64,000 bases of DNA, from the NCBI RefSeq assembly GCF_007197755.1, contig NZ_CP041636.1, positions 1,028,001 through 1,092,000 of the forward strand. The letters run 5' to 3'. The first letter of the stretch is position 1; each line of letters opens with the position of its first letter. A program made the position numbers and the translations under genes. Positions 52,107-60,719 of this stretch are shown one piece after another. Source of the stretch: Ferrovibrio terrae (lineage in GTDB: Bacteria > Pseudomonadota > Alphaproteobacteria > Ferrovibrionales > Ferrovibrionaceae). Below the pieces are notes generated by a model. It had not been told where the DNA came from and did not search any database. It worked only from the letters and a program-made list of their open reading frames with translations.

Positions 52107-52142
52107 CGGCGGCCCCGGAGCATCGGGGCCGCCGTTTTTTCC
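52107..52142 (+). terminator. Intrinsic terminator after binding protein 2
   Basis: CGGCGGCCCCG (52107-52117) pairs with CGGGGCCGCCG (52124-52134) and six T follow. This can produce more binding-protein mRNA than permease mRNA, a common arrangement in ABC importers. Confidence 0.88.
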
Positions 52143-55276: not shown

Positions 55277-55983
55277 TGTCTGAAGCAATGCTGCAAGTCC
55301 GCGACCTGCATGCCTATTACGGCAAGAGCCATATCCTGCATGGCGTGAGTTTCGAGGTGAAAACCGGCGAGATCGTCTCGCTGCTGGGCCGCAACGGCGT
55401 CGGCCGCTCGACCACCATCAAGGCGATCATGGGCGATGTGCCGCCGCAGGGCTCGATCCTGTTCAAGGGCGCCGAGATCGCCGGCAGGAAGCCGCATGAG
55501 ATCGCGCGACTGGGGCTCGGCTACGTGCCCGAGAACCGCGACATCTTCCCGGCACTGACGGTGCGCGAGAATCTCTATCTCGGCCAGAAGGACACCAAGG
55601 CCAGCGGCCGCTGGTCGATGCAGGACATGTTCGAGATCTTCCCGCGCCTGGAAGAGCGCGCCGACACCCAGGCCGGCGTGCTGTCGGGCGGCGAGCAGCA
55701 GATGCTGACCATGTGCCGCACGCTGATGGGCGACCCCGACCTGATCATGGTGGACGAGCCGACCGAAGGCCTCTCCCCCATGATGGTGGAGCGCGTGGCC
55801 GAACTGCTGGAGCGCATCGCCAGCCGCGGCGTCTCGATCCTGCTGGTCGAACAGAAGCTGACGATCGCGCTGAAGATCTGCCAGCGGCTCTATGTGATGG
55901 GCCACGGCCATATGGTCTTCGAGGGCACGCCGCAGCAGCTGAAAGACAACGCCGCCATCCGCAAGGAATGGCTGGAGGTTTAA
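55276..55983 (+). CDS. livF: ABC transporter ATP-binding protein LivF-type, Walker A Lys to Arg
   Basis: 235 residues. LivF features: RDLHAYYGKSHILHGVSFEV, signature LSGGEQQMLTMCRTLM, Walker B LIMVDEPTEGLSP and switch VEQKLTIA. The Walker A loop reads GRNGVGRST: the catalytic lysine is Arg44, encoded CGC. This normally weakens ATP hydrolysis, so LivF may form a degenerate site while LivG holds the active one. TGATG overlap with livG. The rest is intact, so it is not a pseudogene. Confidence 0.94.
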   Translation: MSEAMLQVRDLHAYYGKSHILHGVSFEVKTGEIVSLLGRNGVGRSTTIKAIMGDVPPQGSILFKGAEIAGRKPHEIARLGLGYVPENRDIFPALTVRENLYLGQKDTKASGRWSMQDMFEIFPRLEERADTQAGVLSGGEQQMLTMCRTLMGDPDLIMVDEPTEGLSPMMVERVAELLERIASRGVSILLVEQKLTIALKICQRLYVMGHGHMVFEGTPQQLKDNAAIRKEWLEV

Positions 55984-55993
55984 AGACCTCCAT

Positions 55994-56069
55994 TCGCCAC
56001 CCCGGCCTTGAGCCGGGGTCCCATTTATTCGTTTATAAAATGGGATACCCGCTTTCGCGGGTATGACGA
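55994..56069. repeat. Palindromic intergenic repeat, subfamily alpha (copy 8)
   Basis: CACCCCGG-CCTTGAG-CCGGGGT, an arm CCCATTT ... AAATGGG and CCCGC-TTTC-GCGGG, ending TGACGA. It is nearly identical to the copy at 10435-10512. It lies between the livF stop and the convergent SMR exporter gene. Confidence 0.85.
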
Positions 56070-56077
56070 CTAAGGCT

Positions 56078-56398
56078 TCAAACCGGCGTCACTACTTTCA
56101 GCCCGACAATGCCGGCGACGATCAGCCCGATGCAGACCAGCCGCAGCACGGTGGCGCTTTCGCCGAACAGGTAGATGCCGAGGATCGCGGTGCCGACCGT
56201 GCCGATGCCGGTCCAGATCGCATAGGCCGTGCCGAGCGGCAGCGTCTTCAGCGCGATGCCGAGCAGCACGATGCTGACCACCATCGAGAGTCCGGTCAAG
56301 ATACTCGGCCATAACCGGGTGAAGCCGTCAGTGTATTTCAGGCCGATGGCCCAGCCGATCTCGGTGAGGCCGGCGATGACCAGGATGATCCATGCCAT
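56078..56398 (-). CDS. sugE: SMR-family guanidinium exporter (Gdx/SugE type)
   Basis: 106 residues with four membrane helices. Glu13 (ion/substrate site) is followed by [13 protein letters not shown], the Gdx/SugE pattern that separates guanidinium exporters from EmrE-type multidrug members. SugE/Gdx exchanges guanidinium for protons as a dimer with dual topology. Two ACGA-loop hairpins upstream in its leader fit a guanidine-II riboswitch, which supports the functional call. Transcribed away from the chemoreceptor gene's direction of travel (same strand, downstream of it). Confidence 0.9.
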
Positions 56399-56453
56399 GG
56401 CGAATTTCCTTTCGCTCTAGCGGCGCGCGGCACGCAGTGGCCGGCGCTCTGCT

Positions 56454-56508
56454 GGCAGGGTCGTCCCCGCCCGATATGCAAAGAAAAAGCCGGGTCGTCC
56501 CGGCTTTT
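56454..56508 (-). promoter_or_regulatory. Candidate guanidine-II (mini-ykkC) riboswitch
   Basis: On the minus strand two hairpins with identical ACGA loops: stem AAAAGCCGGG-ACGA-CCCGGCTTTT (56485-56508), 13 nt, then GGCGGGG-ACGA-CCCTGCC (56454-56471, one G-U pair). The GGG-ACGR-CCC loop pair is the hallmark of mini-ykkC. The second hairpin is about 55 nt before the sugE start. The first hairpin is also followed by T-runs and could terminate the upstream chemoreceptor transcript. Confidence 0.78.
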
Positions 56509-56545
56509 CCTCATATGGGGCCTGAAATTTGGAAAGGCAAGAGGA

Positions 56546-59053
56546 TCAGAATTCCTGCCAGTCGTCGTCAGCATTGGCGGCAGGCGCCGGAGACGGACGC
56601 GGGGCCGGAGACGGAGCCTGCCGCGGCACGGGCCGAGGGGCGGCCTGAGCCTGCTGCACGGTTTTGGCAGCGACCACCGGCTTGGCAATGACCGGCTTTG
56701 CCGCCACCACCGGCTTCGGCGCTGCGGCCGGCGCAGCAGCGACGGGCCGCGCCACGGCCGGTGCGCCGCCGGTGCGGAAGAAGCCGACCAGTTCAGACAG
56801 CTGGCGACCCTGATCGGCGAGCGACTGCGCCGAAGCCGACGTCTCTTCGACCAGCGCGCCATTGCGCTGCGTCATTTCATCCATGCTGCCAACGGCGGTG
56901 TTGACCTGCTCCAGGCCGGTGGCCTGTTCGCGGCTTGCCGCCGCGATCTCGGCCACGATATCCGACACCTTCTTGATGGCGCCGACGATCTCGGTGAGCG
57001 AGGCGCCGGTCTGGTTGACCAGCGTGGCGCCGGTCTTCACCTGTGCATTCGACTCACTGATCAGCGCCTTGATGTCCTTCGACGCATTGGCGGAGCGCTG
57101 CGCCAGCGCACGCACTTCCTGCGCCACGACGGCAAAGCCCTTGCCGGCTTCACCCGCACGCGCGGCTTCGACCGACGCGTTCAGCGCCAGCAGATTGGTC
57201 TGGAAGGCGATCTCGTCGATCAGCCCGACGATGTCGCTGATCTTCTGCGCGCTGGCTTCGATCTGCGTCACGGCCGACACCGCATCGCTCACCACGCTGC
57301 CGCCCTTTTCGGCAGTGTCGCGCGCCACGGTCGCCAGCTGGCTGGCGGCCTGGGCGTTATCCGCATTCTGCTTCACCGTGGCAGTGATCTCGTGCATCGA
57401 GGCAGCGGTTTCTTCGATCGAAGCCGCCTGGCTTTCCGTGCGGCTGGCCAGATCCTGGCTGCCGCTGGAGATTTCCGCCGAGGCGGTGCGCACCGTCTCC
57501 GAGCTTTCCGCCAGCTTGCCGGCAAAGTCGCGCAGGCGGGTGACCGTTTCACGCGCGGCACCGGCCAGATCGCCGAAGGCGCCCTTATACTGGCCCGAGG
57601 CCGTGGCGGTGAGATCGCCATGGCTGAGGCCCTGCAGCACGCGGCCAAGATCGCTCAGCACGCTCTGCAGCGTATCGGCCAGGCCGTTCATCTGCTGCGA
57701 CAGGTCGCGGAACACGCCATCCTTGCCGGCCATGTCGATGCGGCGCGAGAAGTCGCCATCGCCGACGGCAACGCAGAACTGCGCGATCTCGCGGCTGATC
57801 GCCGCTTCGCTTTCACGCTGTTCGGACAGGCGGCCGCGTTCGGCATCGGCGCGGCTGCGTTCGTCGGCTTCCATCTGCGCCTTCTCGTCGGCGTTGCGGC
57901 GGAAGACGGTGAGCGCCTTGGCCATGTCGCCCACTTCGTCGGTGCGATCGGCATAGCCGATCTCGGCCGACTGGCCTTCGGCGATGCGCGTCATCGTCGT
58001 GGTCATGGTGCCCAGCGGCGAGATCACGCGGCGCAGGAAGAAGATTGTGCCAAGGATCAGCAGGATGGCCGAAATCGCCGCAATGACAGTGTCGATCACC
58101 AGGGTGCTGGTGCGCTCGGCAATGATGGCATCGGCCAGCTTCAGCGTATCGGTGATCGCCACGTCGCGCAGATAGCCCGCCGTGTAGAGCTGCGGATTCT
58201 GCCGGCCGCGAAAATCGGCCATGGTGAAGGGATAGGCCTCGCCCTTGTCGCTGGCGGCGCGGATCGCGGCATAGATCGGCGGCAGGGTTTCGTAGAAGGC
58301 CTTGCGGGTCTCTTCCACCTTGGCCTTCATCTCGGCCGAGGCATCTATCGCCTGCACACCCATGACGATACGCGCCCAGATCGCATCCACCCTGCCGGTC
58401 TGTTCGGCCAGCATGATGGAGGTGTTCGGCGGAATCGGCTTGCCCGAGGCGACCACATTGACCGTGGCGGTGCCGCGCACGCTGGCCTCGGCGCGCATGT
58501 CGGCCGCCAGGCGCGCGATTTCCATCGGCGCAGAGATGTCGCCATCGGCGTGATTGATCGCGGCGCCGATCTGGTTGAGCATCGGCATGACATCGTTCAC
58601 CACCTTGGTGAGCGCCGGCACATAGCCGTTCATCACATCGGCGGGGCGGTCGGCCAGCGGCCGGGAGATCGCCGCCTCGGTGCGGGCGCGCCAGTCGTCC
58701 AGCGTCGCCTTCATCGCTTCGATGCGGCGGATGTCGATGGCCGGATGACCGGAGGCGCGTGCCGCCGCCAGCGCCGCGGCAATCGTGTCGTCGGTGGTCT
58801 TGCGCGGCTTGGCGATGAACTCGCCCTTCGGATCGGTGGTCTTTTCGTCGCGCAGCGCCGCGTTATAGGCGCCGCGCTCGATGCCGAGCAGTTCGACGAT
58901 GCGCAGCAACTCGCCCTGGGTGGCGGCAAGGCCGCGCGCGGTGACGGCATTCTGGCGTTCCCCATAGCCGTCGTGGATCACCTGCCCAGATTCAAAGAGT
59001 ATGATGCCGGCGAGGATGGCGATGAAAAGCAAAAAGCTGGCGCGGATGCGCAT
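56546..59053 (-). CDS. Methyl-accepting chemotaxis protein (large sensor)
   Basis: 835 residues. A membrane helix (about 4-24), a 300-residue periplasmic sensor, a second helix ([20 protein letters not shown]), HAMP region, then the signalling domain with the hairpin tip [20 protein letters not shown] and [18 protein letters not shown]. The last residues DDWQEF resemble the W-x-x-F tether that docks CheR/CheB in some receptors. The start is ATG at 59053 with a CAGGAGA site; an upstream ATG is not needed. Ligand unknown; the periplasmic part is long and helical. Confidence 0.94.
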
Positions 59054-59364
59054 GGCGGTCTCCTGACACCCGGGGCGGGTAATCTCCAAGGGCGAGATTT
59101 AAGCTGACGCGAGCGCAACCGGCCATGGGGGATTACCGATAGTTACCGGTATTTAATCTCCGCCACCGCTGCGTATAACTTTTCCGTAAAGTTTCTGCCG
59201 CGGACCAGGCCCGGAGCCGATAAGAGCCGGCATATCGGCCACCTCCGGTGGCAAACCCCGTCAGCCATCGCGACAAGAAAAAGCGGCTGCCATCTTGCGA
59301 TGGCAGCCGCTGGATTGTCCGGACGGAGGGGCGAAGAGCCCGGACAGGTCTGCGATGTGTCGCG
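59054..59364. other. Intergenic region mcp-ahpD
   Basis: About 310 bp with no supported gene. It carries the mcp promoter on one side and, at 59277-59311, the terminator of the ahpC-ahpD unit. Nothing else recognised. Confidence 0.6.
59277..59311 (-). terminator. Intrinsic terminator of the ahpC-ahpD unit
   Basis: On the minus strand a 13-bp perfect stem AGCGGCTGCCATC / GATGGCAGCCGCT with a GCAA tetraloop (the plus strand shows TTGC) is followed by TTTTC. It lies about 55 bp beyond the ahpD stop. Confidence 0.9.
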
Positions 59365-59928
59365 TTACTCGGCGGCGGCGGCGATCTCGCCGCTCAGCGC
59401 CTTTTCGCCATCGATCACGGCGGCGACGGCATGCACCACAGCGGCGATGCGCACGGCCTGCTGCACCTGTTCCTCGCTGAAGCCATGCTTGCGCAGCTGC
59501 GCCTCATGGCTCTCGACGCACATGCCGCAACCATTCACCGCCGAGACGGCGAGCGACCAGAGTTCGAAATCGGCCTTGTCGACGCCCGGCTTGCCGATGA
59601 CGTTCATGCGCAGTTTGGCCGGCATCGTCTTGTAGTTGGCGCTCGGCTCATGCGCCATCATATGGACGAAGCGGTAATAGATGTTGTTCATGCCCATGAT
59701 CGCGGCGGCGGCCTTGGCGGCTTCCAGCGCTTCCGGCGACAGCCTGGGCGCGAATTCGGCAACGATGGCCTGGATCACGCTGGCTTCGCGCGAGGCGAGC
59801 GCGGTGGCGATGAAGGTGCCGGCGCGCTGCTGTTCGGTCAGGCCCGGTTCAGTGGCCAGCGAACCCAGGTTGAGCTTGAGGTCGCGGGCATATTCGGGCA
59901 GGCGGGTCTTCAGGCTGTCGAGGCTCAT
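59365..59928 (-). CDS. ahpD: Alkyl hydroperoxide reductase AhpD (carboxymuconolactone decarboxylase fold)
   Basis: 187 residues. The redox site is Cys134-Gly-Met-Cys137 with His141 ([11 protein letters not shown]), matching AhpD of mycobacteria, which reduces AhpC via lipoamide. The N-terminus [20 protein letters not shown] and the [15 protein letters not shown] block are typical. Encoded downstream of a mycobacterial-type ahpC, separated by about 105 bp. Both are divergent from an OxyR gene and so probably peroxide-induced. Confidence 0.94.
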
Positions 59929-60033
59929 GGCGGAATCCTTTTTTATCTTAGCAGGTCTGGGGAGGCTTTCGCCGCGCGCCCGGGGAGAGCACGCGGCGAT
60001 TCCTGACTCTGGATGGGCCTTGCTGAAACCGGC

Positions 60034-60576
60034 TTAGGCGGCCGGCTTCAGAACCTCTTCGCCCTTCTGCCAGTTGCAGGGGCAGAGTTCGTCGGTCTGC
60101 AGTGCGTCGAGCACGCGCAGCACTTCAGCCGGGTTGCGGCCGACGCTGAGATCGTTCACCGACACGAAGCGGATGATGCCTTCCGGATCGACGATGAAGG
60201 TGGCGCGCAGGCAGACGCCCTCGGCCTTGTCGAGGATGCCGAGTTCCTGGCTCAGCTCGCGCTTGATGTCGGCCAGCATGGCGAACGGCAGATCCTTCAG
60301 GTCGGCGTGGTTGTTGCGCCAGGCCAGATGGACGAATTCACTGTCGGTCGACACGCCGTAGACGACGGTGTCGCGGTCGTTGAAGTCACCATTCAGCTTG
60401 CCGAAGGCGGCGATCTCGGTCGGGCAGACGAAGGTGAAATCCTTCGGCCAGAAGAACACCAGCTTCCACTTGCCCTTGTCGGACTCGCTCGAAATGTCGG
60501 TGAAGGCTTTCTTCAGGTCGGTCGAAACGACGGCCTTCAGGTTGAAGGCGGGAAACTTGTCGCCAATGGTCAGCAT
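60034..60576 (-). CDS. ahpC: Peroxiredoxin AhpC (mycobacterial type)
   Basis: 180 residues. Peroxidatic Cys51 is in FTFVCPTEI; the C-terminal CPC (Cys165 and Cys167, DELCPCNW) holds the resolving cysteine, as in M. tuberculosis AhpC, which has an extra C-terminal Cys. The sequence from MLTIGDKFPAFNLKAVV onward fits that branch. It reduces peroxides and peroxynitrite in the cytoplasm, with AhpD as reductant. The ATG at 60576 is chosen; a more upstream ATG adds 18 unrelated residues. Divergent from oxyR across 223 bp with two palindromes. Confidence 0.96.
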   Translation of the reverse strand: MLTIGDKFPAFNLKAVVSTDLKKAFTDISSESDKGKWKLVFFWPKDFTFVCPTEIAAFGKLNGDFNDRDTVVYGVSTDSEFVHLAWRNNHADLKDLPFAMLADIKRELSQELGILDKAEGVCLRATFIVDPEGIIRFVSVNDLSVGRNPAEVLRVLDALQTDELCPCNWQKGEEVLKPAA

Positions 60577-60719
60577 GGGTAATCGCTCCTCTAACTTTGC
60601 TTGGTCTTGGTTCAGGCCCGGCCAAGTCATCTGGCCAAGCCTATCTGGGGGCGGCGGCGGGCTGGTCCCCGCGCCATGGCCAAAAACAGGCCCGCGCAGG
60701 TCTCGTCCCGCTCAGGAGT

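Follow-up and report, generated by a model that had tools for sequence, protein, structure and literature searches.

A guanidine-II riboswitch before gdx in Ferrovibrio terrae and the probable second use of its first hairpin as terminator of a chemoreceptor gene

Among the described systems, the guanidine-II (mini-ykkC) riboswitch (RF01068), the intrinsic (Rho-independent) terminator, the guanidine-IV riboswitch and the bifunctional terminators stand closest to the locus considered here. According to papers on the guanidine-II class, guanidinium stabilises a loop-loop contact between the two hairpins, P1 and P2, and raises translation (PMC5486947, PMC9094411, PMC7544219, PMC12186494), the linker between the hairpins measures 7-40 nt (PMC7544219), and a putative anti-Shine-Dalgarno (anti-SD) sequence is placed within this linker (PMC9094411, PMC7544219). 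In the guanidine-IV class, as outlined in PMC12186494, the aptamer loop lies within a terminator hairpin that belongs to the regulated gene itself, and guanidine prevents its formation. Hairpins that act both as a terminator and as another element have been described as bifunctional terminators, in a passage that deals with transcription-factor sites or sequestration of the ribosome-binding site, not with an aptamer hairpin that serves the preceding gene (PMC2965389). A search of the open PMC literature, subscription papers being outside its scope, found no report of an aptamer hairpin acting as the terminator of the preceding gene. The parts of a riboswitch are usually assumed to act on the downstream gene alone.

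Here, a stretch of 64,000 nt from F. terrae (contig NZ_CP041636.1; hereafter the window) was analysed, in which an element of this kind precedes gdx. It shares with other guanidine-II riboswitches the two G-C-closed ACGA-loop hairpins, the short linker and the position upstream of sugE/gdx, and differs from them in two respects: its P1, which is followed by a T-run and lies close behind another gene, is strongly terminator-like, and its P2 and ATG are 55 nt apart (56399-56453), a distance for which the median is 20 nt in 123 gdx-type leaders, 11 of them having at least 55. Viewed as an intrinsic terminator, it has the G+C-rich hairpin and the U-tract, 42 nt past the stop codon (56548-56546, minus strand) of a chemoreceptor gene, but has an ACGA loop and makes up one half of the aptamer of the next gene. 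Aptamer loop and terminator would share one hairpin as in guanidine-IV, whereas the terminator would here be that of the preceding gene and would not be controlled by guanidine in cis. We consider it quite probable that the element is a guanidine-II riboswitch for gdx and that its P1 and T-run also form the intrinsic terminator of the chemoreceptor gene in three species. The hairpins with their loops, the T-run, the order of the genes and the conservation can be read from the DNA, whereas the binding of guanidine, the termination and the position of the start site are predicted.

The riboswitch and its neighbouring genes

From two minus-strand ACGA-loop hairpins, 13 nt apart and followed by a leader of about 55 nt to gdx, the initial annotation had proposed a candidate mini-ykkC riboswitch. 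All of these parts were located as it had claimed (Table 1), and the covariance search agreed: RF01068 scored 41.9 bits, above the gathering score of 32 and with an E-value of 5.8e-5 for the window, and was the sole Rfam match above cut-off when the 64 kb were scanned at gathering scores. Both hairpins carry ACGR loops closed by G-C pairs, and the gene downstream is of the guanidine exporter type (SugE equivalog). The earlier description of P1 as a 10-bp stem followed by a T-run was also borne out, A-T pairs being included in this length and TTTTTCTTT following directly after the P1 core; with G-T pairs counted, the stem reaches 14 pairs. The linker, which measures 13 nt from the 10-bp P1 to P2 and 17 nt from the 6-bp core, is inside the range for guanidine-II riboswitches by either count, and comparison of leaders revealed that both ACGR loops are kept in relatives. 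Judged by its sequence, the minus-strand element at 56506-56456 is certainly a guanidine-II riboswitch, and an ordinary one of its class.

Table 1. Features of the gdx leader and its flanking genes, in window coordinates.
Feature	Position	Strand	Remarks
Guanidine-II (mini-ykkC) riboswitch aptamer	56454..56508	minus	two ACGA-loop hairpins; RF01068 match 56506-56456
P1 core GCCGGG-ACGA-CCCGGC	56489..56504	minus	first aptamer half and candidate terminator hairpin of the chemoreceptor gene; d = 34.8
T-run TTTTTCTTT	56480..56488	minus	3' of P1 core, within P1-P2 linker; candidate terminator U-tract
GAGGAAAA	56505..56512	minus	5' of P1 core; predicted by folding to pair with the T-run, giving a 14-pair P1 in transcripts from the chemoreceptor gene
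P2 hairpin GGCGGGG-ACGA-CCCTGCC	56454..56471	minus	
gdx/sugE	56078..56398	minus	SMR-family guanidinium exporter; NF008512 140.4 bits; Multi_Drug_Res
Chemoreceptor (methyl-accepting chemotaxis protein) gene	56546..59053	minus	835 aa from the ATG used, plus stop; MCPsignal and HAMP domains
Candidate gdx promoter TTGCCT-N17-CATATG	56512..56540	minus	start predicted at P1 base
Hairpin GCGAA-AGGAAA-TTCGC	56400..56415	minus	Shine-Dalgarno AAAGGAAA (56412-56405) in loop; predicted by folding

The gdx product passes the cut-off of the NCBIfam SugE equivalog NF008512 (126 bits), in line with the Gdx-type SMR gene called earlier, and stays below the cut-offs of the other 20 SMR models. Its best PDB match, 6wk5/6wk8, which we take to be Gdx-Clo, was found at E 2.3e-31 with 111.5 bits, against 49 for EmrE. 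By these comparisons the product is placed nearer to SugE/Gdx than to the Qac/EmrE SMR proteins, and regulation of gdx by guanidine would follow from the class of the riboswitch. Farther upstream of the chemoreceptor gene and on the same strand, ahpD and a gene for an AhpC/TSA-family peroxiredoxin occupy 59365-60630; a peroxiredoxin-like gene is also found near gdx in one further genome of the genus (G007).

RF01068 occurs in 8/10 genomes of the genus and 11/18 of the order, and in 40/386 and 101/397 genomes drawn from the class and the phylum, respectively. In one genome of the genus (G008), the gdx leader (L247) combines a canonical P1 with an ACGC loop in P2 and scores 27.5 bits, under the RF01068 cut-off; its riboswitch is perhaps decaying or altered. 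A variant two-hairpin element was observed before gdx in Rhizobium, Sinorhizobium, Ensifer and relatives (L054, L067, L072, L073, L075, L079, L080, L087, L090, L096), in which a P1 closed as CAG-ACGR-CTG is followed by an extra hairpin of varied sequence, a canonical P2 and gdx. The extra hairpin folds in 10/10 leaders, none of the six leaders tested gave an RF01068 match with an E-value of 1 or less, and the element is possibly a guanidine-II variant missed by Rfam. Two other gdx leaders (L249 and L250, from G015 and G017) have one canonical ACGG hairpin and no clear first ACGR hairpin.

P1 as a candidate terminator

A possible second role of P1, in ending the chemoreceptor transcript, had been suggested with the first description of the locus, and the suggestion is mostly supported: by the rank of its terminator score, by a scan of the window and by the distribution of the T-run, and more strongly by Caulobacteraceae. 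The score d of d'Aubenton-Carafa was used. With both strands of the window counted, only four sites have d of at least 30, at 52107 on the plus strand and at 59310, 56504 (P1) and 14121 on the minus strand, and all four lie 13-55 nt past the end of a long same-strand ORF, homology having been checked for ahpD alone (site 59310) among the ORFs before the other three. Six one-strand Markov copies of the window contained no site with d of at least 30. P1 ranks second among 174 P1 hairpins, and d is above 0 for 10 of these 174, compared with 0/175 P2 hairpins. P1 was absent from the list of a simpler terminator scan because its stem extends through the T-run. From these features, P1 is probably shared as the terminator of the chemoreceptor gene in the window.

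The distribution of the T-run within the genus follows the gene order. The chemoreceptor gene lies directly 5' of the riboswitch and gdx in three genomes (G000, G001, G002), and the T-run is found only where it adjoins the gdx leader (L001, L005, L009), with d from 33.9 to 34.8 and ranks 2 to 4. A PAS-type gene precedes the riboswitch in G003, G004, G006 and G007, and the order chemoreceptor, PAS-type gene, riboswitch, gdx is seen in G005 and G008; the label rests on a Pfam PAS_5 test for G003 and G007 and on sequence likeness for the remainder. In these six genomes the T-run is absent and P1 has d from -16.5 to -49.7. A co-directional gene is close by in all genus leaders with a called upstream gene, and the T-run is thus not obligatory behind such a gene. 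In the lineage of the window, the dual use would count as one event across three species, without a riboswitch-free orthologue for comparison.

The same strand and the gap of 42 nt before the P1 core would also suit one operon of the chemoreceptor gene and gdx, in which transcription continues through P1 and the guanidine-dependent gdx is expressed together with the receptor, for example for guanidine taxis. This is highly unlikely, given the strong terminator-like hairpin between the two genes, the promoter-like elements in the gap, the chemoreceptor as neighbour in three genomes only, with a different gene in the other six that have a recognisable leader, and the abundance of chemoreceptor-type genes in the genus (up to 23 matches per genome). 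On this evidence, a joint transcript for guanidine taxis was set aside.

As for the promoter-like elements, a TTG-type hexamer followed at 16-17 nt by CATATG or CATATC is present just 5' of P1 in L001, L002, L004, L005, L009 and G008. In 150 non-redundant leaders, hexamers with at least 4/6 matches to TATAAT that start 19 to 9 nt before P1 were counted in 60; shuffles gave 31.3 +/- 4.6, and three control stretches farther upstream gave 25-26. This enrichment of -10-like hexamers just 5' of P1 suggests that the gdx transcript probably starts at the base of P1; a stricter consensus promoter scan of 55900-57000 found no promoter.

In the scheme that we favour, with P1 shared between both genes, a polymerase coming from the chemoreceptor gene would reach the G+C hairpin and the U-tract and stop, and in a transcript started from the gdx promoter just 5' of P1 this hairpin would form one half of the aptamer, the first to be made. 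Polymerases from the gdx promoter would have to pass the T-run often enough, after which guanidinium would bridge the ACGA loops of P1 and P2 and turn on translation of gdx, as proposed for the class. Some gdx transcripts should also be lost to a terminator placed so early in them. The order of transcription led to rejection of a control of this terminator in cis by guanidine, since P2 would still be untranscribed when the polymerase reaches the T-run. The same order speaks against P1 and the T-run being an attenuator of gdx, with a stop at about +30, a low basal level and no part for the chemoreceptor gene: every gdx transcript must indeed cross the T-run if it starts at the P1 base, but guanidine could presumably bring no relief before P2 is made, terminator-like P1 hairpins accompany a gene just upstream, and genomes that lack gdx there still have the hairpin. 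We regard such an attenuator as very improbable.

The Caulobacteraceae lineage and the wider set of leaders

A second lineage with a terminator-like P1 was found in the Caulobacteraceae, where RF01068 matches 50/199 genomes and where gdx in many genomes comes right after a conserved, unrelated gene whose 237-aa product matches no Pfam family. The comparison comprised 51 leaders, namely 48/49 from the family (in L297, with the P1 loop ATGA, the motif finder failed) together with L122, L030 and L033. The conserved upstream gene is present in 34 of them, with d above 0 in 31 (range 7.4 to 51.1) and at or below -2 in the exceptions L281, L286 and L290; among the 17 leaders without this gene, d is above 0 in none and ranges from -46 to -86. 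Fisher's test for 31/34 versus 0/17 gives 7.7e-11, which is not a true probability because the leaders are related. The typical P1 is GGCGCGGGG-ACGA-CCCCGCGCC-TTTTTGCTTTT; in L284, L285 and L030 it is CTGGAG-ACGA-CTCCAG, which falls outside the GGACGRCC pattern, so that these were wrongly labelled riboswitch-free in the tree. A hairpin shared by terminator and aptamer is well supported for the Caulobacteraceae by this pattern.

Orthologues of the upstream gene without a riboswitch were sampled in 40 of the 98 genomes that have the gene, and L339 and L378 among the 40 were found to carry a riboswitch. In L339 (G938), a guanidine-II-like pair was observed, with about 64 nt between two GGACGACC motifs, that is not among the RF01068 matches of the family. 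A hairpin with d of at least 20 lies within 120 nt in 15/40, and in others of the sample the upstream gene seems to abut the next gene at once. Seven genomes with the upstream gene and no riboswitch (L341-L347) have a hairpin 32 nt past the stop codon with d from 42 to 67, of the form GGCGCGGAGG-GTGA or GAGA-CCTCCGCGCC followed by a T-run. In the tree of the upstream protein, six of the seven form a clade (97/90) beside a genome with riboswitch and gdx, G935 (99/96); G851, the other riboswitch-free row, lies elsewhere. SMR matches in the L341-L347 genomes have at most 52% identity and none adjoins the upstream gene, and this clade seems to have lost gdx at the locus. Beside the conserved upstream gene, gdx is found in G935, G851, G584 and G889; G851 keeps it behind a terminator-like hairpin with a GCGA loop and a second hairpin with a CAGG loop, and G584 behind a terminator-like hairpin without the motif. 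The simplest reading of these sequences would be that gdx or sensing was lost and that the stem and T-run were kept for the upstream gene, the direction of change being inferred because the tree was midpoint-rooted, for drawing only.

Beyond these two lineages, the signal is restricted. The main set of leaders comprised 183 loci (145 model hits and 38/80 gdx loci with the motif), of which 176 were kept after omission of L013, L118, L119 and L161, for which the motif finder failed, and of the near-duplicates L102, L097 and L214; L006 and L016, probably one locus at two contig ends, were both retained. In 174 leaders with upstream genes called by a codon model, d showed no general increase where a gene in the same orientation lies close upstream (Mann-Whitney P 0.80). 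Values above 0 were found in 7/60 leaders for which a co-directional gene ends no more than 100 nt away and in 3/114 others (P 0.033), in 4/52 versus 3/113 with the genus of the window excluded (P 0.21), and the same association gave P 0.22 with cruder longest-ORF gene calls, which assigned an opposite-strand ORF to L030 and L033. The six leaders with the highest d all lie behind close co-directional genes (P 0.0014) and come from two lineages only. With no general shift of the score across leaders, the dual use would be restricted to a few lineages.

Pairing within the leader and significance

The published model of an anti-SD in the linker gained no support from the leaders compared here. 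Duplexes of the linker with its own Shine-Dalgarno sequence averaged -6.13 in 114 leaders, compared with -6.32 +/- 0.20 for permuted linkers (1639/2000 permutations at least as low), and were not better than those of shuffled linkers either (-6.47). Ensemble folding of 123 gdx-type leaders gave 1.07 linker:SD pairs versus 0.99 +/- 0.09 with permuted linkers. The power of these permutation tests is low because Shine-Dalgarno sequences resemble each other; as a family-wide rule, an anti-SD in the linker was set aside, there being no gain over permuted or shuffled linkers. Pairing between P2 and the Shine-Dalgarno sequence amounts, as a raw count, to at least 3 expected pairs in 54/123 leaders. 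In the window, the long spacer between P2 and the start codon (56399-56453) was seen to contain a hairpin of poorly conserved sequence; its stem GCGAA/TTCGC, with varied loops, also occurs in L004, L005, L009 and G008, in five genomes in all.

A rival reading that draws on the published linker model (PMC9094411, PMC7544219) takes the locus of the window for an ordinary guanidine-II riboswitch in which the T-run is part of the linker and, without guanidine, pairs as an anti-SD with AAAGGAAA, the chemoreceptor gene not being terminated there. In a fragment from the predicted start, 4.2, 8.2 and 3.8 T-run:SD pairs are expected for L001, L005 and L009, which have the T-run, and 0.00 for L002, L004 and G008; with a slightly shorter fragment the former values change to 5.35, 0.71 and 0.04, so that the pairing is not robust to the choice of fragment and 5' end. 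Taken together with the family-wide result and with the persistence of the T-run in Caulobacteraceae where gdx is gone, this renders the anti-SD explanation unlikely. In transcripts that read through from the chemoreceptor gene, GAGGAAAA is predicted to take up the T-run, and for all three species the expected pairing of linker and SD is then 0.00.

We incline, if only slightly, to the view that P1 of a guanidine aptamer would also be the intrinsic terminator of the preceding gene in two or more alphaproteobacterial lineages, one element thus serving two transcription units. The Caulobacteraceae would provide a natural knock-out, in which the loop for guanidine alone is lost and the stem and T-run are left as a plain terminator where gdx seems to be gone; read-through transcripts and those from the gdx promoter, which differ by GAGGAAAA holding the T-run, could then set the switch differently. 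Were the preceding transcript also to end at P1, an element of 24-40 nt would be common to two unrelated genes, each constraining the evolution of the other. The Caulobacteraceae series, which runs from an active riboswitch through a decayed riboswitch with gdx to a plain terminator without gdx, would amount to a set of natural mutants that could separate the sensing role of the loop from the stopping role of the stem and T-run. It would also mean that aptamer halves can hide in terminator predictions, and that terminators can hide in riboswitch surveys.
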